From Crambe crambe (lineage: Eukaryota > Porifera > Demospongiae > Poecilosclerida > Crambeidae), in the NCBI GenBank assembly GCA_963924555.1, contig OZ004587.1:7208075-7272074 (forward strand): 64,000 nt of DNA, written 5' to 3'. Below the pieces are notes generated by a model. The model was not told the origin of the DNA. It was given only the letters and a program-made list of their open reading frames with translations, and searched no databases. The position numbers and the translations under genes were made by a program. Below, one piece after another: positions 961-64,000 of the stretch. Each line of letters opens with the position of its first letter. Position 1 is the stretch's first letter.

Positions 961-1925
961 CAATATCATCCAGTTCCTTGATAGCATCCTTGTGACCCAA
1001 AGATTCAGTGGATGAGTCGTGAATACACATGTACAATAACATGAAGCCATATTCCCCTCCCTTTGAGGCCAATTTCAGGATCAAGGTTGACTTATCCTGT
1101 AGGTAGAAGGGACTCGTAAGTAGTTCCCTATCCTCATCACTGCTCGCTAGTTGGTACTTCAGGAGGTAGGGATACAGGATGGAGATGTCAGGCCATGGTC
1201 TTATCTTGTAATAACAAGAGTAGAAAATATCTCGGTTTATGAAGTTGCAGGAGTGTTTTTGCATGAAATCTCTGGAAATCGTTCCTCCGAAGCTTATAGA
1301 TTGCTCAGGAGAAGTCGACATTAGTGGGGTGGGTGGAGTGAGTTCCTCATGTGTATCCCGTACATTCGTTTTTGATGGAATAGCCATGTTTGGCAGTGGA
1401 ATACCTATAGTGTTATAGGTTGAAACCATGTAGCATGTAGCATCAGCGTGGACAGAGCAGCTTACGTATTCATATTGTGGGAGGAAAACTTACTAGAATC
1501 AGGTTGAGGTCCATATTTTTCTGGGCTTCCTATAGAAAAATTTATAATGAGAGAGTATCTCAGCCACACTACTCTCTATAATAGCAAGTTATTCTACCTG
1601 GAGGTATCTCTTGTTGTTTTGAATACTCTTCTTCAAGATGAGCAAGTATATCTTCATATTTCTTTTGGTTCTGTCTCATATAGCTTACAATTTTGTGATA
1701 GTTTAGACTACTTAACTTCACTCTATGTTTTATCTCCGTCACAAGAACACAAGCTTTGTCATCAGCGGACAAGTTTGATAAAGGGTCATTGATTCTTTCG
1801 TAAACACTTTGAGAGATCAGTCTTTCCATATCAAGATAGTGCAAGATTTCTCTATCTCCTTTTAGAGTGATTTTCAGCATTGGAGTGCAACTGCACAGAG
1901 TCTTTGACTCCCTTGACTCAGCCAT
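961..1925 (-). CDS. CARD-CARD immune-type gene, 5' part
   Basis: Three minus-strand exons are supported: 1925-1598, 1529-1494 and 1404-961, all joined in phase 1; the last donor leads out of the window. Exon 1 encodes a CARD-like helical fold (about 110 aa) closely related to the first exon of the NLR genes at 44832 and 61770, with the shared pattern ERINDPLSNLSADDKA. Exon 2 is a 12-codon linker. Exon 3 has a Pro/Thr-rich start and a second CARD-like domain (DFMQKH...YYKIRPW...GGEYGFMLLYMCIHD) related to those opening genes A, B and the 30.4 kb gene. CARDs recruit signalling partners by homotypic contact in inflammasome and apoptotic pathways. CARD assignment rests on pattern recognition; another death-fold subfamily is possible. 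The start is the ATG at 1925, where similarity begins. Confidence 0.7.
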
Positions 1926-2121
1926 TTCCCATCAAGTACTGCTATTTCCCCTGGAACTATAGCTAATCTTCTACCGTCCTCGGACGTGACCGTGAGGTGC
2001 ACCACACCCCCTTTTGGCATACCAGACACATTGCGCATGTTCAGCGGATTGGCTGTTTTAAAGGTTGTATTATGACAATTGTGAAATTAATACAGAATCT
2101 AAGCAATAGCTACAGAAGCTC

Positions 2122-3078
2122 TCATACTATCAATTGTCCGATGTAGTAATGCAGTCTATTCCTCATTGGTGCTAATCTAGGTTCATGTATTTCCACTACT
2201 CTTCCACGATCGTTTAGTGACACACATGGGTACATCCCTTTCCCATAGTGACAATCAGCGACGTCTTTTTCTCCAGACCATTTGATCCCTTTGAATTCAT
2301 CCCAGCTACCCAAACCCACGTTACTCACCAGGTGTCGATTGAGAGATTGATGGATCAGGATGATGTAATTATCGTTATTGATAGTCACGCAGGGAGAGAA
2401 CCCATTACAAACGTGGTCACTCTCCCTCCAATCAATCGAGCCACGGGGCACATTGAGTCTGCCAACCTTGCACTTGATGTGGTTACTCATATCATTTTGA
2501 TAGCTGAGGATCACCAAACCATTTTCGTTCATGTCGATTGAGAATGATTCGGCTTTTATTCCTTGAATTCGCTGTTTTCTAGTTATCCACGATACCTCAT
2601 TAGAGACACTGCTAATCTGTCCAACACGATAGTTCAAATTCTTCAAGAATAAGTTATCTTGAAACACTGTCACAACTACATTGTCATTATTGATAGCAAT
2701 CGTGGGATAATAACCATAGTTGTAACACTTGCTGTTGCCCCAAACGATTCGCTTCACTGCCAGATCAACTTTTCCAAGACGGTAGAAGCATTTATCCAAA
2801 TATTGACCCTTGTGGACCTCAATTACGCTGTTCTTGTCATTCAGGGCTACTTTAGGGTAGGTCCCACAGCCGAAATAAATCTTCTTTGGAGGTGACCGCC
2901 ATTGAATGGATTCTTCAAGCAACTCCCCTACCCTGTAGTACATCCAGTTACTTCCAGCCTGGTGGTTAACTTCCACCACTGTGTTTTGTATGTTCAGGCT
3001 AACAGATGGAAGAATTCCCTTGTCGTTCAGCTCGTCTCTTTTCAAACGCTTTCCAAAAGTGACAGAGGGCATGGCATC

Positions 3079-3127
<49 letters not shown>

Positions 3128-6100
3128 ACATTAATCAGGTACTCCTCCTTCATCATCCCAACCAGGAATCAAAAGATGGCTCTGAAATTAAAGAGGTGCA
3201 GTCATTATCCTTCCCTCCTTAAAGAATAGCTAATCATGTGTTGAAGTTCTAACCTGATTTCTCCAGTACAAAACAGCTAAGACGGTGGGAGACTTCTGAG
3301 AAATCCACTGGAACCCTGCTCTGGGTGGGCAGCAATTCTTCAGGGGTCAGGTCGGAGGAAGATGAAGCATTGCTGTCATGCGATATATCTTCAAGGAATT
3401 AGAAGATATGCTGTGTAACACTATAGCTAGCTGCAAGGTAGCCCTCTCTTTTTGCTGGTATATTTAGCTATGTAGCTACAATTTTGCTAGCTGTGGCTCT
3501 ATCATAAATCACCTTCTGAGGGAAGAACTGATGTGAAACAACATGGACTTTGACTCGTAGCAACAGAGCTGCCAATTCCTCTGTCTATAAGAAATAATAA
3601 TTGTAATTATACGTACGTAGATAGCTACACTAGCCAAATACCAAGAGACATGACTGATTCTGAAGGAGACTCTGAGCTTGGTGTGTCTGCTTGTATCCTG
3701 CTCCTCACAGAAAGTGGCCTCAAGTGCCCGGGGTTTGGTATGTTTGGAGCTGTAGCAGTATAATACAGCTTCACATAATTAACCAGCACATAGCTAGCTA
3801 TTTCTTACAGCTACTCTCAGAGCATATCAACATGTGTATTCCAAAGTGTAGCTATGTGCGAAAAGACTAAGACTAAGTCACTCTGCACTGTCATAGTGCA
3901 ACTCATAGTGCAACTTTAGCCGAGGGGCCGAGTTTCCAATTGTCATGGCTAGCCTTAGGTCTAGTTGCCCTAAAACTAGGGCTTTGTCCCTAGCCCAAGG
4001 GCAAGGGCAGGGGTTGGGATTCAGTATGCAAATAGACCAAGACTATAGGTCACTCTACACTGCCATAGTGCTACTTTAGCTGAGGGGAGGAGTTTCCAAT
4101 TGTTAGTTACAGCAAGCCCTAGGGCAAGGAATAGACTAAGACTAAGTCACTCTACACTACTTTAGCTGAGGGGTGGAGTTTCCAATTGTTACGGCTAACC
4201 CTAGGTTATAGAATTAGGGCTTTGTCTCTAGCCCTAAGGCAAGGGCAGGGACGGGGATTCAGTATGCAAAATAGAGTCACTCTACACTGTCATAGTGCAA
4301 CTTTAGCTGAGGAGTGGAGTTTCCAATTGTTGCGGCAAGCCCTAGGTTAAAACTAAAGCTTTGTCCCTAACCCTAGGGCAAGGAGGGACTGAGGTTCAGT
4401 ATGCAAATAGCTAGACTAAAGCCGTGTTTAGCTAGCTACAAGTGTGCCCAACCCAGGTTGAGATTATTAACAGTGAAGCATTCGATATAAAAGGACACTC
4501 TGAAAGAGGACAAACAAGCTCTCAACAAAGGACAATCTTTGTAGAATATAACCTCCAAAAGAGGACAACCTCTCTACGAAAGATAAAGGTTGGGTCTCAA
4601 GTGTGTCCACCTTGTAGGCTAACTAGCTGTCAAAGTGCATGGCCTCTTCTTACATACGTAATGCTCTGCGTGAATTGTCTGTACTGGCATAGCTACAAGC
4701 TATTACCTCCCTTACCAGAAGTTGGCACAGGTTCCTCTTTCGAAGCCGAGTAAATCTTTTCATTATGAATGAACAGAGACTGGATTGCATGATCTTCGAA
4801 AAAGATACAACTCTTGGGTTGACTGATGACCTTCTGGCGAAGCATGATGGCAAAATCCAGTGGCATTATCCAGGTAATCATGAAGCAGCCCAATCTATGC
4901 TTGTAATGGAACACAGCATATTCTGATAGAGGGGGTAGGAAATTCTTGCACATTCCTTGACGTATCTTATTGAGATCTTCAAGCGTGTAGCTTTCTGAAT
5001 CCTGCTCAACTTTCATCCTTACCTCAATATAATCCGGGAACTTCTGGCTTCGTCCTGGCCACCATTTTGTGAACTGGTACACAGAAGTATTCTGCCGGAA
5101 CCCTTCAAGTTTTGAAACGTAGCCCTTCATACTCTCCTTGAGGCTACCACTGCCAAATTTGTTAATGATGTATTCCAAGAGATTATAGTCAATGATATTC
5201 CACATGTTTCCATTCAGAAACTGAAATAAAGTAAGGAGGGTCTTTTTCTCTTCGATGTCAGCAATATGCTTCTGAATGGAGACATATATTTCTTTGTTCA
5301 GCGAGAGAGGAAGAAGAGCAATGTAATCACAGATTTCGCTGGCTCTTGTACCGCTCTCTCTTAGCTCGCTCAGAAGCAGTTCTGCGAGTCTTTCAAGTGC
5401 ATCCTCGAGCTCCGCTATGGCATTACCGACAGCATCATCAATTTCTGGTTCAGGTTCTGCATAATTAAAAGTTGCAAGTTACAATGATCGTTTGCGTAGC
5501 CTTAACTGAAACTAACTCCACATGATAGCCACACTTAAAATAACAGTGATCCCCAAAGCTTGGTTGTACGTAGCTACCAAAAGCTGTAAATTCCTCCTTA
5601 CTTGTTGGCGGACCTATACATGAAGCTAGGTCCTAGCTTCATGTCTAGGTCTGCAACATACTAGAACCACATTGAGTCCGTCCGTGACCTACCTATCAAA
5701 GAAGCAAAACCAGATGTAATAGATGATGTTGGATCAGAAGATGTACTGCTTTTAGGTTTCGGCTCTTCATCATCTGTATAGAAATAGTCACGTAGCTACG
5801 TATGATATCAGAAGTATAAAAATATAATCATTATTATTCTGCTGCCTACACAGTGACTGAGATGTCTTGCTACATGTATATAATTTCTAGCCACAACTGC
5901 ATGAAGTTATAATGTAACTTGCTAGTTACATACTTACCTCTGGTTACGAATTCACCATGAGGCTCATCCCCTGTAAATAACACACAAAATTCACAGTCAG
6001 TTATACAGTCCTTAATTCATTCCAAACCTGGTTAGTTTATAGCTAGTCTAGTGGTTATTACAGGGTTGTGGGGATATAGAGAGTTATTAGTAGCTAACCC

Positions 6101-7932
6101 TCCCATAATAGATTACTACGGTATAGTGGTGGACATGGCTTCACTATCTTGAGGAAAAATATACCATAGGTATTGTTTTAGGTTCAGCAATTCACAAGCC
6201 TAAATAGGAGCCAGCCAGTCTTCTAATATAAAGCAATTAGCTATATAATCATGATGAAGAAAAAACCACAAAAAAACAATAACAACAAAACAAAACAAAA
6301 CAAAACAACAGTTTAAAAAAACAACAACAAAAAAAACCGGTACTAATATATCGTTGTGCATTCCAATAACAAATGAATATTATTTGTGACCACAACAAAT
6401 CTCATTAGACTTTAATGGCTTCTGTATACATACCTTTTGGCATGCGCTTTGGTACTTCTCTCTCCCATGGTGGACTGACAAGCTTTTGAGTAGCTGCATG
6501 TACACAATAATATGTGGTTATGACACAGATTATAGGGAAACTTCTAAATAATGGACACACTTGCTAGCCTTTTTTATCTTTTATAAAGAGGTTGTCCTCT
6601 TTTGGAGGTTTAGTTATACGAAGACACTTTTGATTGTGTCCTTTGTTGAGAGGTTTGTCCTCTTTTGTGGAGTGTCCTTTAGCTAGCTATCATGCAGAGG
6701 CTGGGTTCCTAGTCTGGCGTAGCCAGCCCCAGGCACTTCCGGAACTCCAGCGCAAGGGTCTGGTAACACACAATACTTCGACTTGTTCCCGTTTAGCAGA
6801 AATCCTGCTAAAACGATGAATATCATTAACTGACGCGTTATGATGTTTAATGACGTGGGTAGCTATAACAACCATAATTATTACGGGATCGGGAGGCCAT
6901 TTTTTTCTTCACGCGAGATGTTGCTATGACAATTAAATAAGACAACGTCATTTTACGACACTAAAACGTCATATTACATAAATAAAAAATTTAGGCCGGG
7001 AACAAGTCAAAGTATTGTGTGTTACCAGACCCTTACGCTGGAGTTCCGGAAGTGCCTGGGGCTGGCTGTGCCAGACTACTGGGTTCCACTCCCCAACCCC
7101 AGCCCTGCTATGCAGCAATGCACACACACACACAACAGAACCTACTAAAGTGCAAAGCTTTAACCCAAATGGTTTGCTAATTAGACTATATTTTGAAACT
7201 ATGGAAATATTAGTTTCAGTTCAGTGGAGCATACCTATCATCCATTAGCTAGTTGTATGGGAATCATTGGGAAAACCTACTATAGCTACTATTAGCTATG
7301 AAGGATATAATATTTCATGTGTTGAAGATCGTGTTCTTCTCGTGTCTGAGACATTCCAAGCAACATAGATATCAGTGTTGCCAGGTTGCTCTCTTAAAAA
7401 ATCCACAGAAAAGGGTACTATAGACATCCATAGGCATCCATAGACAATTTTCTTATCCAAAAATCCACAGATTGTGGATAAAATCCATGAACCTGGCAAC
7501 ACTGCAGATATAGCTAGAGGTTTGATTGCAACTGCTAGTTATATTAGGTTTAGCCATGCAAGGACAGCGTTTTGAGATGAAATATTCAAATTCTTTACCT
7601 ATCTTGTCCAATTCTTTGATAGCATCAGCATGACCATTCGTCTCCTTGGATGTTTCGTAAATGCAAATGTAGAGAACCATAAATCCATTGGTCCCTCCTC
7701 TTTCTATCATCCTGATCAGTGAATTCATCCTCTCCTGAGGCTGGATCCATTGTCCAGTGATACACTCGATGTCATTGGAGTCGTTCACTATCTGATATTT
7801 CATCAGATATGGACAGAGAATGTGAAAATCGAGCCACGGTTTTATCTTGTAGTAGCAATGGTAGAAAACCTCTTTGTTGACATAGTTAATGTCGGGGTGA
7901 TCCTTCATGAAATCGCTTACAAGGTCACTCAT
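2122..7932 (-). CDS. CARD - helical domain - propeller repeats (gene A)
   Basis: Nine minus-strand exons: 7932-7599, 6493-6434, 5970-5938, 5773-5693, 5456-4716, 3749-3642, 3584-3513, 3388-3254, 3077-2122. They total 2520 nt (839 aa) with every intron in phase 1. Exon 1 is a CARD-like domain. Exons 2-4 and 6-8 are short Ser/Thr/Pro-rich linkers. Exon 5 (247 codons) is a coiled, all-helical domain also present in the NLR genes downstream. Exon 9 holds six repeats of about 48 aa with the core GxxPxVALNxxxxVVEVHQ...YRVG...I.W, read as a beta-propeller, perhaps lectin-like. No signal peptide or membrane segment is visible, so it is probably cytosolic. The overall plan resembles an NLR with the NACHT-LRR part replaced by a propeller sensor. 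It is the tandem sister of the gene at 9055-14631, with identical exon lengths apart from one missing codon in exon 9. Ligand and function are unknown. Confidence 0.82.
3082..3125. repeat. (GA)n / (CT)n microsatellite at a 3' splice site
   Basis: About 44 bp. On the gene A sense strand it reads CT and runs into CGCAG, the acceptor of exon 9 at 3077. It therefore serves as the polypyrimidine tract. The equivalent tract in gene B is far longer (115 bp). Confidence 0.9.
3855..4425. repeat. Intronic minisatellite, about four units
   Basis: Four diverged direct repeats of about 120-150 bp lie in gene A intron 5. Each carries the blocks AAGTCACTCTACACTG, GAGTTTCCAATTG, GCCCTAGG and TTCAGTATGCAAATAG. 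The same intron of gene B (11030-11375) has about two units, so copy number changed after the gene duplication. Confidence 0.75.
4475..4620. mobile_element. CAGTGGAACC-family MITE, diverged copy
   Basis: Carries the family core GAGGACAAAC, CAACAAAGGACAATCT, ATAACCTCCAAAAGAGGACA and GTGTGTCCACC found in the intact copy at 54037-54205. It lies in intron 5 of gene A. The terminal repeats are decayed. Confidence 0.55.
6535..6690. mobile_element. CAGTGGAACC-family MITE, diverged copy
   Basis: In the opposite orientation to the 4475 copy: TGGACACACTTG, AGAGGTTGTCCTC, TTTGTTGAGAGGTTTGTCC. It lies in intron 1 of gene A next to the 6710 element. A related remnant sits at 13510-13590 in the same intron of gene B, so this copy predates the duplication. 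Confidence 0.55.
6710..7078. mobile_element. 369 bp MITE, 83 bp TIRs, 9 bp TSD
   Basis: The two ends are inverted copies for about 83 bp, starting TAGTCTGGCG and ending GCCAGACTA. It is flanked by a perfect direct repeat CTGGGTTCC at 6701-6709 and 7079-7087. The matching intron of gene B (around 13598) has a single GGCTGGGTTCCACT and no insert, giving an empty site. A 9 bp duplication with long TIRs fits a Mutator-like non-autonomous element. The interior is AT-rich and non-coding. Confidence 0.88.
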
Positions 7933-9054: not shown

Positions 9055-14631
<5,577 letters not shown>

Positions 14632-26600: not shown

Positions 26601-26745
26601 GTCTGTAGAGAGGTTGTCCTCTTCAGAGGTAGCTAGCTACCTATGGGCTATGGGAATGTGTCATGAACATTTAGAACCTTGAAGATTTAGCTACAGAGGT
26701 TAGCAGTTTCTATTATGTCCTTTATTGGAGATTAAATTCTAGGAG

Positions 26746-28293
26746 ATGGCTTTAAAGCGTACCAACACAATGGACAAAAGCGTGGAAGACCTTGAGAAGG
26801 AGATCACGTGTGCTATCTGTCATGATCACTACACCGAGCCCAAGGTCCTTCCTTGTCTCCATTACTACTGCAAGCAGTGTATCCACTGGCTGACTCTAAG
26901 GACTGGCCTTGACAAGCCATTCTCTTGCCCTGAGTGTCGTAAAGATTCTACTCTCCCCCGAGGCAGTGTGGATGAGCTTCCAACAGCTTTCTTTGTCAAT
27001 CGCATGAAATCAGTGCACTCCAAGCTGGAGCGAGCTCACGGCAAGGTGGAAGCCAAGTGTGAAATGTGTTCCGGGGATAGAGCCAAAGCTTTCTGTCGAC
27101 AGTGTACCCAGTTTATCTGTGACGAGTGTGTGAAGCAGCATCACAGAATGAAAGCATTCACTGGTCACAAGGTTGTTTCTCTTGACGAATTGAAAGAAGG
27201 AGCTAAAGAGATTACCATGAAAGAATCACCTCATCAGACATGCAAAAAGCACGATGAAGCTATGAAGATTTACTGCTTCGATTGCAAGTCTCTCATTTGT
27301 CGCGACTGCACCATTAAAGACCACTTCCATCACGATCATGAATTCATAAAGATATCTGCTCCTGAGATGAAGAAGAAGCTGATAGAGCAGTTAGATCCCC
27401 TAAATGAAGTTAAGGTGAGTCTATCGCATGCTGTAGAGGAGATAAAAATCACCAAAGGTGACATAGAAACTCAGGGGAGATCTGTGGCCGAATATATTGA
27501 TAGCTCTTTTGACGAACTTCAGAAGATCATCGAAAATCGTAGACAGGAACTATTGAATGAGACTGCATTGAAAGTGACGGAGAAGTTGGAGCGTCTCTCT
27601 GACCAGGAGAAGAGCTTGTCCACTACTTGTGAAGCCATTCGGAGTGTGATTGAATACACTGAACAATGGATGCAGCATTCGACCAACGAGGAAGTGATGT
27701 GCAAGCATGTCGAGATCGAGACTCGCATAAAGAAAGAGATCGAAGAATATTGCCAGTTAAAGATGAATTTAGATCCTGTAGAGGATGTGGATGTAGGAGT
27801 GGAAATGATGGATAGTGAATATTTGAAGCAGCTTTTTGAAACTAAAGCAATGCTGAGTCAACTTCCAATTGATCCTGCAAAGTGCACGGCACGTAGTGAA
27901 GGAGCTGAGACTGAGATGAACAAAATGTGTGGCTTTATCATAACACCGAGAATGACCAATGGAAGACACACTAAACAGGAGTGTGAAATCGATTGTAAAT
28001 TGAATTCATTAATCAGTGGAGCCAATGTTGAGTGTATTATCGACCGGAAGGCCAATGAATATCGTATTTCATATATACCCACTGTTAGTGGAAGTCATGA
28101 ATTGACTGTAGCTATCAATGAAGAGGAAATAGCTGGTAGCCCATTTACCCTAGTCGTCACCAATAACTTCAGCATTGCAGCTTCAAGGTCTTCTCCAGTG
28201 ATTACACGTCGCAGGTCAAAGAGTGAAGCTTCTCCAGAAATGAAAGGAAGCTCTATGAAAAGACATACATTTGCTGGATGTCCAGATCAATAG
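26746..28293 (+). CDS. TRIM45-like RING/B-box/filamin protein, copy 1
   Basis: Single-exon 515 aa protein. A C3HC4 RING finger lies at about residues 22-64 (CAICHDHYTEPK, CLHYYCKQC, CPEC); a B-box type 1 at about 103-146 (CEMC...CRQC...CDEC); a B-box type 2 at about 165-205 (CKKHDEAMKIYCFDC...CRDC); a coiled coil at about 205-330; and a filamin/Ig-like repeat at about 390-475 (YRISYIPTVSGSHELTV...GSPFTLVV). There is no NHL or SPRY domain, so the architecture is that of TRIM45. RING TRIMs are E3 ubiquitin ligases, often cytosolic and linked to immune signalling. TTCTAG immediately before GAGATG suggests an intron in the 5' leader, with the whole coding region in one exon. A tandem sister follows at 28577. 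Confidence 0.9.
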   Translation: MALKRTNTMDKSVEDLEKEITCAICHDHYTEPKVLPCLHYYCKQCIHWLTLRTGLDKPFSCPECRKDSTLPRGSVDELPTAFFVNRMKSVHSKLERAHGKVEAKCEMCSGDRAKAFCRQCTQFICDECVKQHHRMKAFTGHKVVSLDELKEGAKEITMKESPHQTCKKHDEAMKIYCFDCKSLICRDCTIKDHFHHDHEFIKISAPEMKKKLIEQLDPLNEVKVSLSHAVEEIKITKGDIETQGRSVAEYIDSSFDELQKIIENRRQELLNETALKVTEKLERLSDQEKSLSTTCEAIRSVIEYTEQWMQHSTNEEVMCKHVEIETRIKKEIEEYCQLKMNLDPVEDVDVGVEMMDSEYLKQLFETKAMLSQLPIDPAKCTARSEGAETEMNKMCGFIITPRMTNGRHTKQECEIDCKLNSLISGANVECIIDRKANEYRISYIPTVSGSHELTVAINEEEIAGSPFTLVVTNNFSIAASRSSPVITRRRSKSEASPEMKGSSMKRHTFAGCPDQ

Positions 28294-28421
28294 CTAAACT
28301 CTAACATAATATTATATGTTTTGAGTTAATTATAGTAGACCCTGGCATGTATAAATTACAGTAAATCCATTCTTTCGAGGTTTTTACATTTCGCGCGCGC
28401 GCATGCAATGCAGCCCCACCC

Positions 28422-28434
28422 TTGCGCATGCGTT
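28422..28434. promoter_or_regulatory. NRF1-like palindrome upstream of TRIM copy 2
   Basis: TTGCGCATGCGTT, with a CG-rich run CGCGCGCGCGCATGC at 28392-28406, about 150 bp upstream of the second TRIM start. Confidence 0.4.
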
Positions 28435-30410: not shown

Positions 30411-32026
30411 ATGGCGAATTCAAGCAGAGAGATCGAGAGTGCCCGGAAAATTGGTGAGTTTTATAGAGCATACTCCTAAAGGTCATACGCCATAAGCTAG
30501 ATCTTTGATTGGACTCTATTCCTTTCCCTGTTACTTTAATATCTAGAAGATTTAATTCAAGACTTCCTCCAACGCAACCCAGAAGCTAGATATGTCGACC
30601 GTAATATCTTCATGGCTTGCTACGCCACCATCAAGCCATGGTTGGATTTATCTATTCTTGTGAGCTTCTTAATGAAGTACGAGTTGGCAAGGACCAGTAG
30701 TGATATGGAGCAACTGACCAGTCCATTCCACCTGTCGGAAATGAGACATCAGCATCTATGGAGATTAGCAGAGAGTGGGGGTGAGCACGGTTTCATGTTG
30801 CTCTACATGTGCATCTGGGATTCCATTGACCAGTGTCCCTTAGGCCACGGAGATGCCATAATAGAACTGGATAGATGCGGTAAGTGGTGGAACGCAGTGG
30901 TACCTCTGATGAAGGACGACTCCAAAAGAGGACAAACCTCTTCTTAACAGAGGATAATCTTTGTATGTAATACACTCTATACAAAATAACCTCCAAAAGA
31001 GGACAACCTCTCTACAAAGGACATAAGGTTGGACTGGCCTCAAGGGTGTGCATTATTCAAAGGTGCCTCTGTACACCATCCATAAGATATTTATAATTAT
31101 GAAAACACTTTTGTCTGAGAATGTGTTCCATAAGCTCCTACTGTTACTCCCCTATGGAAGGCAAGGGTGACCATTATAACAGACTCCACTGCATGCATTT
31201 CTTGTTGATTGTTGTGGATATACAGATTTGTCTCTTCCATAAGTTCTGAGGATATAGTCTCAATGCTCCATAGCCTATGGCTATGCTTGGGGGGCATGAT
31301 TTGGGGGGGTCTTTTTTTTTTTTTTTAACAGTTGAGCAATTCTGTGTAATGTGTGTAGCACGTGAGAGGAATGTAGTGCCACCATGGAGTAGACCCAGGG
31401 CAGACTACAGACCACCACTGGGACTATGTAAGTGTACGTGTATCAATTATAAAAACCCTTGAATCCAATTCATTATAGACGGGGGACAGTTGACCTAATA
31501 GTGTGTCAGTGTGATATGTAGCACACTGATTTTTCAGACATCTGCTGCTATACTTCTGCAATAGTCAGTGTTAAACCAACAGGAAAGCAGCTGGCCAAAG
31601 TGCAGTTTTTCCCATTATTTTTTTGTCCTGTTATTATTGGCCTGATGTGGCTAGCAGAATGCAGTTAAAGACTTGACTTTATTCGTATATTTCTCTTCCT
31701 CTTAAAAGCTAATAGCAGTCGTCCGGAATTGAGTAGTCCACTCCAACCTTCTCAGGTGGAGGATGGTCTTGCTACGTCCCTTCTCAGTCCATCCACATCT
31801 TCATCTACAACTCTATCTTCTCTCCGTGAGGGATCAGGTTCTCATCACCAACTCACTCCACAGGAGCAGCTGGGAGGAGCTTGTTGCACGCCGACTATGG
31901 AAAGAGTAGAATGCAGAACAAGTTAGTGTGTGTGTGTATGTGTGTGTGTGTGTGTGTGTATGAGAGAGAGAGAGCTACAGATCTACATCAGAACCCCGTA
32001 GAATGCAGAACAAGTCAAATGTGTAT

Positions 32027-32088
<62 letters not shown>

Positions 32089-34026
32089 CATTATTTCATT
32101 GCTGTAGCTTCATCTCGAAGGGAAGAGATTGAGCGTAACCTAGGAACTCGTGAAGCCAGCAAGCACTATTCAAAGTCATCCACCACCACAACTTATACAA
32201 AAATAAAAAGAGGTGAGAACCACCCAGTGAGTACTAACTACCTCCATACTCCTATGTATGCTAATTCCCTTATTTAGGATACAGTGGGTATATATAAAGT
32301 AAAACCCAGTACAGAAAAAACAAACCGAACACTGAATTTAAAACCACAATTTGGTGCACAGTACTTCACACAAAATGCTCTGATGCTATAAAGAAATTGC
32401 TAAGACTTGTACAACCAGGAAGGTCAAAGTACACCGTATCTCCCAGTAGTAAGAGTGGGAATCTTTCTTCAATCTTTAGGTTGAAGAAAAACCCAACCCC
32501 AAAATTATTATTACAAATTGAACCTCTGAAAAGTGGAAATCTCTCTATTCAGGAAAATAAGTCCTGACAAAAATAGCTGGTCCCAAAATGTCCACTCTAA
32601 TTATGTACACATTCTGCACCTGTAGGTGAGGGAAATGCAGTCAACCCTAATCCGATCTCAGCGACTCCCCAGGAGGAATCAGACCCCTTGGTCCCTCACT
32701 CGGACGTCTCCCTGAATTCCTACCCCTCCAGACCTGTTTACCTCAACCCCAACTCAAGGGCGGGTCGTGGCAGCCCAGATGACGAGCGTGACGCTGGGAA
32801 ACGGAGACCGAAGAATGGTGACGATACAGAATCACTTACTGAGGAAGATTTTGTGAAGAAACACAGTGATGAAACTCAAAGGCTACATGGTGAGGGCCCT
32901 GAGGGGACTGAATTACATAATGCATGCACACATGATAAAAATAACTCTTTATTACATAATATATTTTGCAGTGCTAGAAATAACTCCTACTCAATTACAT
33001 GCATGATTTTTTGGTATAGAGCCTTGAGGTCTTTTTCGAGCAGGGAGGGGAGGGGACATTTTCCTTCCCCCTTAGAGCAATCTGATTGGTCAGTTGGAGG
33101 GGTACTATCCAAGAGAGATACACAGGTCTTGTGTTTCTAAATTTTGTAGCGAAATTCCCGGCCCCTAGTCTGGCGGCACCGACCCTTACCCCCCAAGTAA
33201 AAGGAGGTAAAGGGTCGGCACCGCCAGACTACCTCACCCCCACCCCTGATAGGGTACTGAATGTCAGACTGAATTTTACTTCCTGTCCTTTAAATCAGAA
33301 TATTGTTTGTCTGAAAAAGGAGGTAAAGGGTCGGCACCACCAGACTACCCAATAGGGTACTGGATGTCAGACCCAAATTTTACTTCCTGTCTTTTAGATC
33401 AGAATATTGCTAGTCTGAAGAAGGACATGAATATATCAGCTAACTTCTCCAACAATACCTGCATCTTTGAGACCTCCTCGTTGCAAGAGTGCCCTGATTT
33501 AAATGCTCTAAAATGTCTGATCAGCAAGTTTGCTGTTGCTGTGCTCAATGCCCGGGACACCAAGAAGCCCGGTGTGCTGATCGTTGGAGTGGACACCTCT
33601 GAGTCAGAAAAACAAGATTATCATGTGACTGGTCTTCCATATTTGGAAGAAAGCACGCTAATGGGAATCCGTGATTCAATCCATCAAGATATCCGTTATT
33701 GCGAAGATAACGGCAATGAAAGAAGAAATTTACAAACTAATTTCACAAAAGCCATGATAAAAGCAGACATCATCTCTCTCATACCTGTGAAGGAGGCCGC
33801 TGCTCTTCCTACTCCAGTTCTCCTGTTGACCGTCTTGCCGAACAACCTCCTCTGTCACGACTCTGTGTTTCAGCAGACCTTGACGGACATGTGTGGGCAG
33901 ATCATGAGCAGTAGAGTCTTCCGCATGATTTGTGATGACGTCACAGGACACACAGACATTTCTGAACTAAGTGACGAGAACAAAGTGAAGAAATTGAGAG
34001 CACGTTTCAAGAACTTTTCATGTTAA
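30411..34026 (+). CDS. CARD - linker - AlbA/Schlafen-like (SAMD9-type) protein
   Basis: Seven exons: 30411-30453, 30547-30879, 31332-31427, 31709-31921, 32108-32212, 32626-32889, 33398-34026; 1683 nt, 560 aa, all introns phase 1. Exon 2 is a CARD-like domain of the same type as in genes A and B (YVDRNIF...YATIKPWLDLSIL...GGEHGFMLLYMCIWD). Exons 3-6 are Ser/Pro-rich or charged linkers. Exon 7 encodes a C-terminal globular domain with ISKFAVAVLNARDTKKPGVL followed by IVGVD, resembling the AlbA_2 domain of SAMD9 and Schlafen proteins (core FAxAxLNxRxxGxxxxGV). In SAMD9 and SLFN proteins this region binds nucleic acid or cleaves tRNA, and those proteins restrict viruses; activity here is unknown. 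The linker part of exon 4 is low complexity. Domain assignment is moderate; exon structure is strong. Confidence 0.78.
30897..31073. mobile_element. CAGTGGAACC-family MITE
   Basis: Starts GCAGTGGTACCTCTGATGAAGG and ends AGGTGCCTCTGTA, with the family core AAGAGGACAAACCTC and ATAACCTCCAAAAGAGGACA. It lies in intron 2 of the CARD-AlbA gene. Confidence 0.65.
32034..32083. repeat. (GA)n microsatellite
   Basis: About 50 bp of GA on the sense strand in intron 4 of the CARD-AlbA gene. This is one of the few dinucleotide tracts here that is purine-rich in the direction of transcription. It is not adjacent to the acceptor, which has its own T-rich tract. Confidence 0.9.
33166..33231. mobile_element. 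66 bp hairpin with TAGTCTGGCGG ends
   Basis: The arms TAGTCTGGCGGCACCGACCC and GGGTCGGCACCGCCAGACTA are perfect inverted copies around a short A-rich loop. The tips match those of the 369 bp element at 6710, suggesting a very short relative. It lies in intron 6 of the CARD-AlbA gene. Confidence 0.7.
33202..33430. repeat. Tandem duplication over a 3' splice site
   Basis: Two copies of about 116 bp (33202-33317 and 33318-33430) share GGTAAAGGGTCGGCACC, TAGGGTACTG, TTTTACTTCCTGTC and TCAGAATATTG. Only the second copy has the CTTTTAG acceptor; the first reads CCTTTAA at that place, so it cannot serve as a normal splice site. Confidence 0.8.
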
Positions 34027-44831: not shown

Positions 44832-47800
44832 ATGGAAGAGTCCAAGGAGTATTCCACTATCGTCAAGTGCAGCAGGAAGCTGGAGATTGCTCTCAAATCT
44901 GACAGAAATATTGCACTGTTTCTCCTTCAGCAAGGATTCATCACACAGGAACGTTATGATGAAGTTATCAACCCAAAGTCAAATCTGACAGATGCTGAAA
45001 AGGCTAGTATGCTAGTGACTGCAATCAGAGATCGAGTTGAACTCAATCCTCGCAATTACCACAAAGTGGTCGATCATTTGCGTCAGAACACTATAAGATA
45101 TGGAGACATTGTTGAAATTCTCGATCAACAGTATCATCAGACCACAGCTGTAGGCAACTCTCTTCAACCAGGTTGGATATAGCACGTGTATACCATGGGG
45201 AAAACCCCAAAAACTTCCCCATAGCTTTCTGATTAAGCTTGAAGTTAATGAGGCATTTGTATGGTTATGATTTTATAAAATTACTATTTTCCCATAGTCA
45301 CTACCCTATCAGTGATGGCCACACTCACTCCTCTTGCACCCAATGACTCTCCCTCGACAATTCCCTCTGAGGGAATGACCTCCATGATGGCCACACCAAC
45401 CCTTCCTCCTGTACCCAATGCCGCTCCTTTGCAAATGAGATCTCCTGATGAGTCTTCCAAGGGAACCACCTCTATGCTGGTCACACCCTCCCCTCCTCCT
45501 TCCGTACCTAATGCCTCTCCTTCATCAAGATCTCCCTCCGAAGGAACAACCTCTAGAATTGCCACACCACCTCCCAGCAGTGGCTCCTTCTCAGCTTCCA
45601 CTACGCAATCCTTCACTGATGGAGCCACAGTATCCAATGACAACTCAGGTGAGCTCTATATGGAAAATATAACATTTACTTGTGAAAACTCTTTACCATA
45701 TATTAATGGTACAGTAGGATCTAGCCTCGTACCCGGGCCCACTTTTTTCTACTGCCCCGCGAAAAAAGTGGGCCTGGGTACGAGGCTAAGTAGGATTATA
45801 GTGTTGTATCCATGGATTATTTAAGTATGACTAACCCATGTATGACTATCATAATATTATTGTTACAACTCGTAGGTAAATCTGCTACAGCAATGAACGG
45901 GTCCTTTGCAATAGCCACACCCACCATCTCACTTCCTAGTGAACCCTCCCCTTCCATAATACGACCCTCATGGGATCCACCTGAAAGAGCCGAAAAGATG
46001 ATGTGTGAAAAATCTGGCTTTGAAAGTTCACCATGTAAGTCGTGCTACTGGGTCAAGTCATTAATGTTTTAATTCAGGCAGCAACCCTTAAGTTTACTGT
46101 GTATTTTACCAAATTACTCCACTAATATATATATGGGATCGGGATAACTCTTGATGCTCAACCTGGAACTGAAAGTTACCAAAGACTTCCAAGATCTTAC
46201 TCATTATGTGACGTTTTCTGACGTTTAGTGACGTGAAATGACGTCACGCGCCACTGGATGACGTCATTTAAAGGCGCTCGCAATCCACATGCTCTGGAAC
46301 AACACTGAAAGATGCTGCCGACAGAGCTGCTGTTGTTTGGGGTACCGATCCATACAACTGGGGTTGAAGTGTGAGCTGTTGGATGCTTTTCTATCTAGGA
46401 GAGATGTTCCTGCGGTTCTGCGCACGCATAATGCATCATCGTGACACATGAATTATTGGAAGCGTCATCCGGCACTTCCTGCCCCGAACAAGTCCATGTA
46501 TTACGTATCACCAGACTCTTGCGCCACCGGCGCTCGGGGCTGGCTATGCCAGATTACTTGGTGCATACAGTTCCTCTCTGTACACCACAACTTAAGAGTT
46601 TATGATTAATGGCCACCACCAAAAATGGAAGTGTCCAGAGTTACCACCTTAATTACCTTCTCACAACTATAATGATACTATGAAGCTTGAATTCAGTCCA
46701 GATTTGTTCTTTTTCCCTTGCAGATCTCGAAATTACGACCATCAAGCAAAAAATGCAGCAACTTGAATACAAGTTTGGTGATATTGTCATTAAAACGTAT
46801 GATAAATTGAAAGAGATGGACATCGATGTTGGTCGATTCAGAGCTCGCCTCATCACTTTACCATTCGAGTACAAGGAAGAACACAAAGACTTCTTCCAGC
46901 AAATCGAAGATGAACTTGAAAAGGAATCCACTGTCGATTGCATTTGGAACAAACTCAGCAAGTACTGGAACTTCTTGAACTATACCTTGTTGGAGAATTT
47001 GATACATCATCTTGGTGATCGTGTCCTCAAGCGAAAAATGGATGATTACCTGAGTTCACTGAAAGAATTTCAGTGCAGCACTCGTCTGTGTGACTTTGCC
47101 AAGTGCTGTCCTGCAATTGAGAACAGACCTAGCGAAGCAGATTTAAAGAGGTTCGTAATTGACCTAAGCCTAGAGTGGGAGACGTGCACTTTGGAAAAAC
47201 TAGAGGAGTTAAAGGGTCACATCATCCGCAAATTCCTCCTCCCCTCCTTTGCCCTCATCTTGGAGAAGGTTTCTCACGGAAGCTTGATAATTACATGGCT
47301 CTTGCCTGCAAAGATTGCCTCGAGTCTAATGGAAACTCTTGAGAACATCGACACAGGAGAGCTTTGCAAGGAACACAGAATCAACTCCATCACTGTCGAT
47401 GGCAAGGAGTGCAAGTATTCACCAAAGAAGAAATATACTATTTATTTGAAAGACTTGTATTCCAACAAAGAGGGGAAAAACCTCGCTCCTTTTAAACTTG
47501 CACTGATAGAAAAGGAGGAAATCAGCAGAAGAAATGCTGATGAATTCACCAAACAAACTTTGCGTGGAGACCTTGATGATGTAATCTATAAGAAGCATCA
47601 CATGACAGAAGATGAAATAGATCATCCTAAATGGCTATGGTATAAAAATCCCCGACTAATCCTAATTGAAGGAGCTCCAGGTGTGGGTAAGACCACATTC
47701 AGTGAACAGTTTTGCCACAAGTGGTCTCAGGGCCAACGTCTGAAAGACCACACCCTACTGGTCCTCCTACAGCTACGAAACAACAGAGTGAAGTCGGCCA

Positions 47801-49899
47801 AAAGTGTATCTGACCTCTTCCTCCATCCTCACCTCCAGCAGGCCATAGCACAGGAAGTGGAGAGCACTCAAGGAGAGGGTGTGGCCCTGTTACTAGAAGG
47901 CTGGGACGAACTGGAAGGAGAGATGAGAGAAAAGTCCTCCATATTCTTGGACCTGGTGTGTGGTCGTGCTCTACCTAAAGCCACTATAATTGTCACCAGT
48001 CGACCATGGGCCTCTAAGACCATCGTCAAGAACTCTCACATTAAAGTGGATCAGCATATTGAACTGTTGACAACTCCTAAGATCCAGTACGATCGAGTGA
48101 TGAGGGAAGACAGAGTGAAGGCTGAAGATAAAGAAAAATTCAAGGACTATATTTCATTCAACCCATGAGTAAAGGCAGCCATGCACACTCCTGTGACTGC
48201 CAATATAATAACAGAAGTGTTCCAGTGGAGCCGAGACACTGACTCACCCCTTCCAACCACAATGACCCAACTCTATACATCGTACACTTGTAAGTTGCTG
48301 ACACAGCACTTCTCCAGTGGTGAGGCACACAGCCAACAATCACCACAGAAGATTCGATCTCTGGAAGACCTTCCTCTTGACGTGCAGCAACAGCTGCAGG
48401 CCCTCAGTCGAGTGGCCTGGGAAGGAATCCTGAAGCAGCAGCTTACGTTTAGTGGTCATGCAGTGAAGGAGTCACTTGGACTGATGCAGAAAACAGGAGA
48501 ACTTTACAGCGAAGAGGACAGTCAGGTCTCCCGCCACTTCATCCACCTGACGCTGCAGGAATTCCTTGCATCCTATCACATCAGCCAACTCCCAACAGAC
48601 CAGCAACAAAAAATTATTGAACAATACATTCGATTTGGCCACCTCAAAGTGGTCATTAAATTTTTTTTTGGAATCGTTAGAAATGGTGCGTTTGCATCAT
48701 CGATGATAGCAAAGGATCTGAATCATAAAAGAGATACTAGTCCATTCCTATGGATGTATGAAATCAACGATCCAGAATTCATCCGTGAAATACTGGGACC
48801 TGATGAATCAATAACGATTTGTTCTGCATACGAATGGAGTCCTCTAGACTACGATAGTGTTGGATACGTTATATCCAACTCCCTTTGCAAATGGAAATTG
48901 AACTTTTACTATTCTTCCATGGGGGACGAGGAAATGGAAATGTGGTGTAAGGGAGCAATGAACTGTAAAGAAAACACTGGAAGTGAGCAAGAGGTGCATG
49001 CAAATTTCTCAGATAACACTCTTTCTGTGGAGGGTCTCAAGTGGTTTGTAAAATTGCCTCGTCACCTTCTCCAGCGAATCGTGTCACTGAACTTCTCACA
49101 AAACAAACTGGATAAGAAAGCATTAGATCTCCTTTCTCAAGTCGTCCCTGCACTGTCTAAGTTAGAGGTATTAAATCATTCTGGCAATCCCATTGGTGAG
49201 GGGGGAGCAGTGGAGCTCATGAGATCTCTCTCTCACTACAAGACTCCATTGAAGGAGTTGTATTTGGAGAATACATCTCTTGGAGAAGAAGACATACAAG
49301 CACTTTGTGAAGTCCTGGCTGACAATCATATAAAAAAATTAGCCATCAATGGCCCTAACATCTCCTTTGTGGGACGTCATATCGAAACACTCGAAACTCT
49401 TCTTGTTAGGCAACCTATGTCAGTGGATAGCTGCACATCCTTGGCATCACTACTCAAGCATCGCACGTGTCAGTTGAAGGAGTTGGATATTTATAACTGC
49501 AGTATTAATAGTGATGGAGCTGTTCAACTAGCAGCTGCACTAAGTGAGAACAAGTCAGTGGTTAATATCAGTATGCGGTTGAATAAAGACATTGGAGATG
49601 TCGGAGCAGGTGTTTTTGGGGACATGCTGAGGAAGAACACAGTACTACGAGAACTTGATTTGAATTATTGTGGAATTACATCTCAAGGTTGTGATCGGTT
49701 GGCAGGAGGAGTAAGAGCGAACTCAACATTACAAGTGTTGGACTTGAGAGATAATCGAATAGAAGAGAAAGGAGTCGACCTGATGTTAATTAGTTTGAAA
49801 TTCAACAAGATATTGAAGAAACTCGTCCTATCAGAAACATACAAGCGACCAGCAGACCCTAGAGTGGAATGGAGATGTAAGGAGAGTGTGAACATGTGA
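44832..49899 (+). CDS. CARD - helical - NACHT - LRR receptor (NLR), interrupted by one stop codon
   Basis: Four exons: 44832-45171 (CARD), 45298-45648 and 45876-46034 (Ser/Thr/Pro linkers), 46724-49899; all introns phase 1. The last exon encodes the helical domain shared with gene A exon 5 (KLSKYWNFLNYTLLENLIHHLGD). A NACHT domain follows, with Walker A GAPGVGKTT (47671-47697), Walker B LLLEGWDELEGE (47886-) and sensor VTSRPW. The C-terminal NACHT helices come next (HTPVTANIITEVFQW), then about seven LRRs (LPLKELYLENTSLGEEDIQAL type). NLRs are cytosolic sensors that oligomerise on activation. The frame is continuous except for one TGA at 48166-48168, inside the NACHT C-terminal region (FNP*VKAAM). 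The product would be 764 aa without the stop being read through, 1341 codons otherwise. A polymorphism, sequencing error or true pseudogene are all possible. CDS coordinates include the part after the stop. Confidence 0.87.
45721..45788. mobile_element. 68 bp hairpin MITE with 8 bp TSD
   Basis: Arms TAGCCTCGTACCCGGGCCC and the near complement ending TGGGTACGAGGCTA. It is flanked by AGTAGGAT at 45713-45720 and 45789-45796. The paralogous intron of the gene at 61770 (near 62650) reads CAGTAGGATTATAGTG with no insert, giving an empty site. An 8 bp duplication fits hAT-type transposition. Related tips occur at 61195, 39014, 36112 and 8893. Confidence 0.85.
46136..46565. mobile_element. Degenerate relative of the 6710 MITE
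   Basis: The right end GAACAAGTCCATGTATTACG...CACCAGACTCTTGCG...GGGGCTGGCTATGCCAGA matches the right end of the 369 bp element, and GGGATCGGGA and several TGACGT blocks match its interior. The left terminal repeat is not recognisable. It lies in intron 3 of the NLR gene. Confidence 0.6.
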
Positions 49900-58420: not shown

Positions 58421-59143
58421 GTAAATATTCTGCAGTAGAAGAGAAATTTCCTTATCTGAAAAGTGTATATTTATCAGAAGAAGAAAGGAGTATGCTGATG
58501 GGAAGACTCGTAGTGGACAGTAAAGATATTCAAAGTAAATTCTCGTCTCTACTTTTCCACACAGAGAGGTCCTTAACTAGTGAGAAAGTGTCGATACGAT
58601 CCTTGAAGGTGCTTCTCTTACCTTATAAAATATCTTATCATGAATCTGATGATGACGTCAGCAAGATATTACTGAAGGCATTTCGCTGCTGTTCACTGTT
58701 CAGTTTTCAAATCGTAAAAGATATCATCGATCACCTTGGTACTAGCGATGACAAGGAGAGATTAGCCAAATACGAAGCAAGTTATTGCAAACACAGACTT
58801 TGTGAAGTACCTACTGAAGTGCTGAACCCTGGTGGATCAGGAGAGGAGAAACAATTTTTTGTCAAGACAGATAAAATTTTCGATGTTCAGTTGGAAGAAG
58901 TTTGTGTTATACAAACAGAAATATCAAGAATATTGGAGAAGCCCATACACCTGAAAGGTATGAAGGAGGAATGTGTCGAACTCATTTTCTATCTCCTTCA
59001 CGAGCTGGATGAAATCTTTCCTTTGAATGAGAAACAAATGAATCTGCTGAAAGGAATTGGAGTGTTGAGAGTGTATGATGAATGTAAGGAATACTTCTCC
59101 CTGTCCTCTAATGCTGGTACCACAGTATCCAATGACAACTCAG
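58421..59143 (+). CDS. Intact helical-domain exon cassette
   Basis: Open exon of 723 nt (241 codons) bounded by TATTAG and a GTGAGT donor, phase 1 on both sides. It encodes the helical domain in a variant form: LVVDSKDIQSKFSSLL, SDDDVSKILLKAFRCCSLFSF, GTSDDKERLAKYEA and KHRLCEVPTE, and ends with TVSNDNS, the same tail as linker exon 2 of both NLR genes. No start exon or CARD exon was found upstream, and the next downstream cassette (59235) is broken. It could be an alternative exon spliced into the 61770 gene or an orphan. The role of the domain is unknown; in the NLRs it sits between the linkers and NACHT. Confidence 0.65.
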
Positions 59144-59234
59144 GTGAGTTCTATATAATGTAATATGACTTTGTGAAAACCCTGTACGTCTTAACCAGTG
59201 ATGATGAAACCATGTGTTACACTTACTATCATAG

Positions 59235-59788
59235 ATAAATCTGAGAGATTTCCTTATCTGAGAAGTGAGCATTTATCAGAAAAAGAAAAGAGTATGCTGA
59301 TGGGAAGATTCGTAATGGAGAGTAAAGATATTTGAAGTAAATTTTCATCTCTACTTTTCCAAACTGCAAAGTCGTTCACTAGTGAAAACATGTCACCACA
59401 ATACTTAAAGATTATTCTCCAACCTTACAAAATATCTGAGCTAAATGAATCTGATGATGACGTCAGCAAGATATTACTGAAGGCGTTTCACTACTGTTCA
59501 CTGTTCAGTTTTAAAATTATAAGAGATATCATCAAACACCTTGGCACTAACGATGATAAGGAGAGACTAGCCGAATACGAAGCAAGTTTCAAAGATTATT
59601 GCAAGCACAGACTTTGTGAAGTACCTACTGAAGCACTGAACCCTGGTGGATCAGGAGAGGAGAAACGAACTGAACTCTACGTTATGACCGATAAAATTTT
59701 CAATGTTCCATTGGAAAAAGTTAAGATTGTACAATCTGAAATTTCAGGAATATTGGAGATGCCCATACACCTGATTCCAATGAAATAG
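59235..59788 (+). pseudogene. Second helical-domain cassette, broken
   Basis: Near copy of 58421-59143 beginning after ATCATAG in the same phase. An in-frame TGA at 59332-59334 stands where the intact copy has the Gln of DSKDIQSKF. The frame then stays open (NESDDDVSKILLKAF, KHRLCEVPTEALNPGGSGEE) but ends at IHLIPMK with a stop, losing about 55 C-terminal residues. Probably non-functional. Confidence 0.75.
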
Positions 59789-61590: not shown

Positions 61591-61769
61591 AGCTAATTAT
61601 TTCGAGAGACATCTGCTCCCGACATCTGCTCCCTGAGAGACTTCTGTGACCATCTAACTTAATTGATATTTCGTTCAACTGACTACAAAAGATCAGATTG
61701 ACTTGTAAGTTTGTATGTTCACACTATGTATGATAAATGAACCATCACATCTTATTTGTACAGTTAAAA

Positions 61770-64000
61770 ATGGCAGAGTCCAAGGAGTATTCCACAGTTG
61801 TCAAGTGCAGGAGGAAGTTGGAGATTGCTCTGGAGTCTGACAGAGATATAGCACAGTTTCTCCTCCAGCAAGGATTCATCACACAAGAACGTTACGATGA
61901 AGTCATCAACCCAAAATCGAATCTGACAGATGCTGATAAAGCTAGCATGTTAGTGACTGCTATAAGGAATCGAGTTGAACTCAACCCTTGCAATTACCAC
62001 AAAGTGGTCGATCATTTGCGTCAGAACATTATAAGATATGGAGACATTGTTGAAATTCTCGACCAACAGTATCATCAGACCACAGCTGTAGGCAACCTTC
62101 TTCAACCAGGTATGAGGACCAGAAGGGACGACTGGATCTATAGCATGTGTATACCATGGGAAAAACCCCAGAAACTTCCCTCTTTTAGCTTTCTGATTAA
62201 GCTTTAAGTTAATTGAGGTATTTTGTATGGTTATAGGACGTTATAAATTACTATTTTCCCATAGCCACTACCCAATCAGTGATGGCCACACACTCTCCTC
62301 CTCCTGTACCCAATGCCTCTCCCTTGACAATTCCCTCTGAGGGAATGACCTCCATGATGGCCACACTAACCCTTCATCCTGTACCCAATGCTGCTTTTTC
62401 GAAAATGAGGTCTCCTAATGAGTCTTCTGAGGGAGGCACCTCTATGCTGGTCACACCCTCCCTTCCTCCTGCCGTACCCAACGCCTCTCCTTCACCAAGA
62501 TCTCCCTACAAAGGATCAACCTATAGAATTGCCACACCACCTCCCAACAATCCTGATGGTGCCACAGTATCCAATGACAACTCAGGTGAGCTCTATATGG
62601 AATATATAACATTTACGTACTTGTGAGATCCCTTTACCATATCTTTATAGTACAGTAGGATTATAGTGTTGTATCCATGGGTGATTTATAATAGTCCATG
62701 TATGACTATCATATTGTTACAACTCATAGGTAAATCTGCTATGGGTAATGAGAGTGCATGCTAACTGTTACTTCCTTTAACAATCACGTCTGCAGGGTTC
62801 ATAGTAACATTCTATTATTGTCTGGACATGATTATCTAATAGCAGTTTTAAATGTACATCTATGATTGGTTGGACGAAGGACCAGACAAATAAAAAATTG
62901 ACCAGGAAATGTGCATCTGTGACTACACACATTAGATACCCAAACTGTATTTTCATTCTGATTTTGCTATCATGGGGAAAACCCCATAGCTATTGTGGGG
63001 AAAACCCCCCTTTAAATTTTTATAAGATCCTATGATTTTACTGTTTTCCTATCAGTGATGGCCACACCCTCTCCTCTTCCTCTCTATGAAGGATCAACCT
63101 CTAGAATTGCCACACCACCTCCCAGCAGTGGCTCTTTCTCAGCTTCCACAATGATTGAACAAGAAATCGAAATCTTAGAAAAAAAATTTAATGAAATAGC
63201 AGACATGACTTTCGATCAAATTAAAACGAAGAATCCAGATGTGGTTAGATTCATAGCAAGGCTTGTTTCTCTACCCATAAAGTATCGTGAACTGCACAAA
63301 GAATTTTTCACGCAGTTAATGGAGTTTGTAGAAAAAGATACAACCATTGAAAGGATATGGATGAAATTGAGTGAATACTGGGACTTCCTAAATTACACAC
63401 TCTTGGAGAATTTGGTTCACAAATTTTGTGATCACACCCTCAAAGCCAACATGGAGGAATATGTGAAAGGTCTTAAAAGATTTAGAACTAAAACTCTCTT
63501 GTGTGAATTTACCCAATACTGCAACAAAATCAATAAAGAGTTACCAGAACACGATTTACGAGAAGTAGTCGTTAAGTTGAAGAAACACTGGGATGAATGT
63601 ACCCTTGAAGACTTAGAAGAATTGAAGGAGAACATTACTCAACAATTCTTTCTCCCTTCATTTGTGATGAGATTAAAAAGCATCAAACCAGGATCCATTG
63701 TAGTCACATGGACAATCCCAATGTTTATTGCATCAGCTCTCAGGCAGAACATTCAAAACATGGACATAAGTGAATTCTGTAAGGAAAATGAAATCGAACG
63801 TATCCTTATCGATGGCAAAGAATTCTCTAAAGGAACCACATCTATGCTGACCACACCTATCACTGCACCTCACAGTGGCTCTTTTATTGTTCCCTCGAAG
63901 CGATCCTCTACTGATCCATCTGAAAGAATTCAACCTGGTGGCAAAGATGCCAGTGATAAGTTTACTCCCTTGTTGCTGAACTTTTTTGAACTGCACACCT
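61770..64000 (+). CDS. Second NLR-type gene: CARD - linkers - helical domain, cut by window end
   Basis: Exons 61770-62109 (CARD, ERYDEVINPKSNLTDADKAS), 62265-62585 (Thr/Pro-rich linker ending VSNDNS) and 63056 to beyond 64000, phase 1 throughout. The ATG lies in GTACAGTTAAAAATGGCAGA, aligned with the 44832 gene. The third exon is open to the window end and starts as a linker (YEGSTSRIATPPPSSGSFSA) that passes without an intron into the helical domain (EIEILEKKFNEIADMTFDQI, YWDFLNYTLLENLVHKFCDH, GSIVVTWTIPMFIASALRQ), then a second linker. NACHT and LRR would be expected beyond the edge. The counterpart of exon 3 in the sister gene (GGTAAATCTGCTATGGGTAA at 62731) runs into a stop after 11 codons and is probably skipped. 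So linker and helical parts were re-joined differently in the two sisters. Confidence 0.8.

Follow-up and report, generated by a model that had tools for sequence, protein, structure and literature searches.

The origin of the hundreds of architectures that combine death-fold and TRADD-N domains in marine invertebrates is an open question, to which retrotransposition has been proposed as a partial answer. A locus of the sponge Crambe crambe is examined here. The stretch analysed (the window, 64 000 nucleotides, C10:7208075-7272074; the genome comprises 143 Mb in 119 contigs) contains six genes or gene parts with CARD-like exons: genes A and B plus the beginning of a third gene (961) on the minus strand, and the 30411, 44832 and 61770 genes on the plus strand. 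The original prediction, made from the letters of the window, saw in them a locus-scale system that builds new cytosolic immune receptors by swapping exon cassettes. Its observations are partly confirmed here and its interpretation is partly supported. The genes very probably belong to a large cytosolic death-fold/TRADD-N-like immune family, assembled over evolution from mostly symmetrical phase-1 cassettes by DNA recombination inside introns. What documents this, as far as sequence can, is a near-uniform join phase, several types of N- and C-terminal exon flanking a single central domain, and mosaics of two parents that switch between exons. Because introns are kept, phase is shared and the switches lie between exons, the junctions can be read and the mechanism is directly testable. 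The case bears on how intracellular sensors diversify in animals without antibodies.

Intron phase

Gene models were obtained by rebuilding exon joins by script from splice sites and reading through them; all joins are therefore predicted. As had been claimed, every intron that could be placed in the six genes is in phase 1 (31 of 31; 23 of 23 without gene B, a close paralogue of A), and the internal exons, linkers included, are all multiples of three in length. The helicase-like gene of the window, rebuilt identically as a control, has seven introns in phase 0, two in phase 1 and two in phase 2 (31/31 versus 2/11 in phase 1, Fisher P = 1.2e-7). Intron phases in the ribosomal-protein genes of Amphimedon are distributed as 52/27/21% (PMC3412847).

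Among loci fetched genome-wide, phase 1 scores best for the central-domain acceptor in 29 of 30, which are not independent since many are close paralogues from one array; the odd locus (L040) uses the same acceptor, with a small deletion behind it. The best donor following 11 exons of the first CARD-like type (CARD1), six of the second (CARD2) and three Death exons is in phase 1 in 19 cases out of 20. The exception is the Death exon of L083, where phase-0 and phase-1 sites score within 0.1 of each other; the donor site of L043 is too distant to be trusted.

Mosaic genes

The symmetrical 1-1 exons of the original prediction and actual swaps between genes are both supported, and steps of this kind were seen in four gene sets. 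The 44832 gene (NLR1) resembles its right-hand neighbour NLR3 moderately at its start (CARD exon 74.1%, intron 1 67.9% identity) and almost perfectly further on (intron 3 98.7%, central domain 98.1%), whereas the reverse holds for the 61770 gene (90.6, 84.1, 44.6 and 56.3%, respectively). Along 100-base windows the identity of NLR1 is 80-97% with the 61770 gene over 44850-45650 and 93-100% with NLR3 over about 45950-48900, while its linker exon 2 matches both at about 90%. The similarity thus switches from the 61770 gene on the left to NLR3 on the right at about 45800-45850, within intron 2 (45649..45875, plus strand). A copy on contig C6 (L040) matches NLR1 at 97-99% to either side of the switch, and the mosaic is therefore common to the two. 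A near-perfect inverted repeat (hairpin) of about 70 bases, at 45721-45789 in intron 2, adjoins the switch point; its core is present in L040 too.

In an array on C9, L079 is 98.2% identical to L078 in the 5' cassette and 98.3% identical to L081 over 2565 columns, which start inside the stretch between the linker and the NACHT frame; upstream of this L079 and L081 are unalignable. From about base 2120 their identity runs at 86, 93 and then 94-100%, and their CARD exons are 77% alike. The NACHT frames of L078 and L079 are open. On C8, exon 4 (central domain) of L041 is 93.9% identical to that of NLR1, whereas the preceding intron is at chance level (42%) except for its last 20-55 bases; the corresponding values for L042 are 86.3 and 42.5%. 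To the left of the window, gene P3 combines the propeller of P4 (92.2%) with the CARD exon of P5 (85.6%), the switch falling somewhere in C10:7197481-7199655, a stretch that also contains short P4-like pieces. CARD1 exons form an alpha and a beta group, which are 57-65% apart and 86-97% alike within, and each group precedes both the TRADD-N-NACHT exon and the unlike NACHT exon of C9, giving four combinations.

Partners of the central domain

The central domain is present in at least 148 copies on 15 contigs (one query, with 150 of 248 candidates scored), which does not bear out the term 'locus-scale'. For the 145 hits used, the closest listed exon in the 5 kb upstream was CARD1 in 22, Death in 23 (the Death list holding 150 of 965 candidates), CARD2 in five and another CARD in one. 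A CARD1, CARD2 or Death exon therefore precedes 50 of the 145, against a mean of 1.0 and a maximum of 5 in 200 random draws. Downstream, 26 of the 30 loci fetched continue in frame into a P-loop (NACHT-type) sequence, the LRR test covering the 44832 gene only, and a propeller follows within 5 kb in 7 of 145 hits. Two further exon kinds, both lacking a Pfam match, also follow the central domain. Rather than one fixed partner and mixed phases, which the original prediction had named as counter-evidence, the domain thus has several partners and a phase-1 acceptor at nearly all the fetched loci. CARD1 has 110 hits in the genome, and CARD2 is local, with six of its seven hits inside C10:7190640-7238949.

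The window lies at the right-hand end of seven propeller genes arranged in tandem. By strand order from left to right, their N-termini are CARD2; Death; CARD1; Death and CARD2; CARD1 and CARD2 (the 961 gene); CARD2 (A); and CARD2 (B). The Death end of the second was read by eye, and in the third an intact central domain was not found. In A, B, the 44832 gene and this left-hand cluster, the central domain has a death-fold unit before it and a variable C-terminus after it.

An array of genes that join Death exons to the central domain lies at C16:1254401-1470697 (L082, L083); in the two genes fetched, an exon family without a Pfam match follows, its phase-0 join in L082 having been read by eye. 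The partner exons on C16 and at L084 on C11 may resemble caspase-like and ZU5-like domains, for which Pfam and PDB gave no match. Beside the family gene on C11 (L084, 3586-5239), a frame of death-fold-like appearance, without a Pfam match, precedes an AIG1-family GTPase (AIG1, 57.3 bits).

Identity of the domains

Both N-terminal exon types, which the original prediction called CARD, look CARD-like by profile comparison but are not classed as CARD, as they stay under the Pfam cut-off. Against PF00619, four of 11 CARD1 members match (best E 0.0018; the 61770 copy reaches 17.8 bits against a cut-off of 23.9), as does one of six CARD2 members (E 0.033). Compared by hhalign with the seven CARDs of the genome that pass the cut-off, the CARD1 and CARD2 profiles gave E values of 3.8e-5 and 3.3e-5 and probabilities of 71 and 72%; the central domain, used as a negative control, gave 0.1%. 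In PDB, CARD11 ranks first for the CARD2 profile (E 0.058), and no CARD was found with the CARD1 profile.

The central domain had been described as helical, which suits one half of it. In the best of five structure models (mean pLDDT 76, built from four sequences; the other four reached 42-54), helices extend to residue 132 and are followed by a beta-alpha-beta-beta-alpha-beta half. All 17 aligned members carry Gly followed by Ser or Cys at residues 185-186, the beta2-beta3 turn of the model; the published signature of TRADD-N is a tiny residue and then Ser, or occasionally Cys, in the turn that links beta2 to beta3 in an RRM/ACT-like fold (PMC8195603). The Pfam profile for the NCOA6 TRADD-N domain (PF13820) matches none of the 17 members directly. 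In a search of the genome it gave three sub-threshold matches, none among the central-domain hits; one of the three is L085. The L085 protein scores 37.9 bits against the central-domain profile (best of 1000 shuffles, 7.2), and its best Pfam match is PF13820 (E 0.0025, 18.1 bits, cut-off 22.5). For the central domain, Foldseek returned nothing below 0.001, and the protein database gave a single entry, 100% identical. A relative of TRADD-N is the most likely identity; we use 'TRADD-N-like' as a name and do not take membership as proven.

The propeller was modelled with six blades at a confidence of 91.5; near folds include the PLL, AAL and AofleA lectins, NHL domains and sialidases, and on this model the domain may bind glycans. 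It has 17 relatives in the protein database, and none was confirmed in bacterial and archaeal genomes; among plasmid records there was one match (34.5% over 34% of the query, Nonomuraea). These searches revealed no origin for the propeller. Of the three C-termini proposed originally, the propeller and NACHT-LRR are indeed joined to the central domain. The third, labelled AlbA-like, belongs to the 30411 gene, which lacks the TRADD-N-like domain, and the label is unsupported: there was no Pfam or PDB-sequence match, the protein database returned only the sequence itself, and the exon has a single match in the genome.

Gene models in the window

Gene A (minus strand; nine exons, eight introns, 839 amino acids, no internal stop) begins with an ATG in a CARD2 exon that matches CARDs by profile (7599..7932). 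Linkers of 60, 33 and 81 nt follow (6434-6493, 5938-5970 and 5693-5773; together 5693..6493), then the 741-nt TRADD-N-like exon (4716..5456), all of them 1-1, linkers of 108, 72 and 135 nt (3642-3749, 3513-3584 and 3254-3388; 3254..3749) and the propeller (2122..3077), for which the rebuilt join is accompanied by the structure model. Gene B, on the same strand, repeats this layout with eight introns. Its exons 1-8 were built (14298-14631, 13399-13458, 12843-12875, 12635-12715, 11656-12396, 10667-10774, 10536-10607 and 10264-10398; 10264..14631), and its propeller exon 9 (9055..10013) runs from an acceptor that scores best as phase 1 to the end of the open frame.

The 961 gene, also on the minus strand, has four introns inside the window. 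Its rebuilt exons are a CARD1 exon (1598..1925), whose family profile matches the Pfam-CARD exons of the genome, a 36-nt linker (1494..1529, 1-1), a 444-nt exon joining a linker to CARD2 (961..1404, 1-1), a 63-nt linker with the motif PPWERE (803..865) and a 57-nt linker (69..125). Judging by order, the gene appears to continue to the left of the window with a central domain (C10:7207213-7207857) and a propeller (C10:7205377-7206339).

On the plus strand, the 30411 gene (30411..34026; six introns, 551 amino acids, no internal stop) consists of exons 30411-30453, 30547-30879 (CARD2), 31359-31427, 31709-31921, 32108-32212, 32626-32889 and 33398-34026, the last encoding the orphan C-terminal domain. 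NLR1, with three introns placed, has a CARD1 exon of the alpha group (44832..45171), two 1-1 linkers (45298-45648 and 45876-46034; 45298..46034) and a fourth exon (46724..49899) encoding the TRADD-N-like domain, NACHT and LRR. Scanned as two pieces flanking an in-frame stop at 48166-48168, this gene gave 50.5 bits for NACHT and 49 bits for LRR_6. Besides that stop in the NACHT-LRR exon, its donor at 45172 is weak (GTTGGA), and the gene may be decaying. The 61770 gene, with two introns placed, has an alpha-group CARD1 exon (61770-62109) and a linker (62265-62585; 61770..62585), followed by a linker fused to the TRADD-N-like domain (63056..63999), whose frame is open to 63999. It had also been counted as NLR-type; NACHT was not seen by eye in open frames of at least 70 amino acids between it and the next gene, and so 44832 is the only NLR-type gene of the two.

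Two tandem units on the plus strand (58429-59142 and 59336-59785; 58429..59785) are weak relatives of the central domain, reaching 24.1 and 26.9 bits against the L085 protein but 3.9 and 10.1 bits against the family profile; in the second, an in-frame stop lies just upstream of the given frame. Between the six family genes lie others that look galactosidase-like and helicase-like, the latter presumably DDX24. A TRIM-type frame with RING, B-box and filamin matches in the Pfam scan also lies between them. It is the first of two tandem long single open frames at 26743-30157, the second of which looks like its paralogue.

Assembly of the family

If, as seems very probable, the family arose by recombination of cassettes, those that start and end in phase 1 would keep the reading frame after unequal crossover or ectopic gene conversion breaking in introns, and arrays might for that reason readily give new pairs of signal domain and sensor. 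In the resulting proteins the C-terminus (a propeller with a lectin/sialidase-like fold, or LRR) would sense, the TRADD-N-like domain would keep the ends inactive and relay the signal, as proposed for TRADD-N (PMC8195603), and the CARD-like or Death end would nucleate the signalling assembly. The wording 'a system that builds' receptors goes too far, since the swaps are evolutionary and no dedicated or programmed mechanism was seen. That exchange is ongoing and differs between individuals, or that 1-1 cassettes from adjacent genes are brought together in RNA as well, seems unlikely. If it were true, one sponge would carry a larger set of receptor combinations than is written in its genome, which would parallel in an animal what has been suggested for brown algae.

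Several observations weigh against recombination of phase-1 cassettes as the account of this family. The exon joins are themselves predictions, and crossover and gene conversion fit the data alike. As many as 94 of the 145 central-domain hits lack any listed N-terminal exon in the 5 kb before them, though the Death list took in 150 of 965 candidates. In the C16 family, the join from the central domain to the following exon is in phase 0. For the central domain at C10:7193883 the best acceptor is in phase 0 (weakly so), for the propeller at C10:7186804 it is in phase 2 (4.3, with phase 1 at 4.1), and for the distant propeller loci L014, L028, L036 and L027, whose structures may differ, it is likewise in phase 2. 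Eight Pfam-CARD exons from other parts of the genome, unrelated to the family, have phase 1 as best donor in 8/8 (L004 being too weak to count) and as best acceptor in 6/8; phase 1 may thus be a more general feature of death-fold exons in this genome and not a mark of the family. The intron difference of L042 is possibly plain divergence, and NLR1, with its stop and weak donor, looks damaged, so that its mosaic may be a non-working one.

Exon-wise gene conversion without crossover, in which old layouts are kept while single exons are homogenized or replaced, is the most serious competitor, although we consider it the less probable account, and it overlaps with cassette recombination as one possible route. 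Gene arrays are present in this genome, and in the NLR-B30.2 genes of zebrafish conversion acts differently on each exon (PMC4852459); the partners in our mosaics, however, differ in linker exons and even in the presence of the central domain, which exceeds conversion of single exons. Retrotransposition, by which reverse-transcribed pieces of immune genes would land beside TRADD-N genes and make fusions, has a published precedent in the retrotransposon association of the DEDD2 clade (PMC8195603). It is quite improbable here, as the exons remain split by introns and the introns are carried along (98.7% identity in intron 3 between NLR1 and NLR3, mostly 94-100% ahead of the NACHT frame between L079 and L081). 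Introns that change together with exons fit poorly with exon selection as well as with retrotransposition, and intron sequence travelling with exons favours DNA recombination over the latter.

We regard as very improbable that plain tandem duplication with uneven divergence, phase 1 being inherited from one ancestral gene, produced the pattern unaided. Many copies are indeed plain tandem paralogues, but the phase is common to unlike exon types, four combinations of CARD group and C-terminus occur, and the steps from unalignable to 86-100% are abrupt, unlike gradual divergence. Collapsed or mis-joined haplotypes could yield false mosaics, and large near-identical arrays are hard to assemble. 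Such an artefact is just as improbable as unaided duplication, given that the four gene sets lie on contigs of 8.7-9.2 Mb and that each mosaic diverges from its parents by about 1-14% instead of being identical to them.

Comparison with known systems

The phase-1 layout, the form of the propeller and the DNA-level mosaics were not found in the literature searched, and prior work on Amphimedon NLRs may cover phases or swaps. The architecture class is already known from Amphimedon, where TRADD-N proteins of the NCOA6 clade are hugely expanded (357) and, as here, combine one to three death-fold domains, TRADD-N and a variable C-terminus, in their case ankyrin, SH3-LRR, caspase and others; beta-propellers occur with TRADD-N in oysters and amphioxus (PMC8195603). 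The main text of that paper contains neither 'intron' nor 'exon' and proposes retrotransposition as a partial source of fusions. Unlike that system, the Crambe family has a six-bladed PLL/sialidase-like propeller, phase-1 cassettes, mosaics at the DNA level and members that the Pfam NCOA6 profile misses. CARD- and Death-type NLRs also occur in the NLR repertoire of the sponge Dysidea avara, described in a paper whose main text has no word starting with exon, shuffl or recombin (PMC12909245). The sponge SRCR superfamily resembles ours in its tandem expansion of immune type, and exon shuffling is discussed in the sea urchin part of its description; its scavenger-receptor domains, unlike our cassettes, spread over three exons each, and 'phase' does not occur in that text (PMC10855680).

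The NLR-B30.2 genes of zebrafish are likewise a large NLR family in which recombination, in the form of gene conversion, differs by exon; they keep one exon-intron structure and swap the B30.2 exon, whereas in Crambe the changes affect the N-terminal signal exon and entire layouts (PMC4852459). The ROCO receptors of brown algae offer a parallel, in that exon cassettes of a single phase are shuffled in candidate immune receptors. Their cassettes are phase-2 LRR repeat exons of one domain, while the phase-1 exons of Crambe correspond to whole, unlike domains (PMC11378527).

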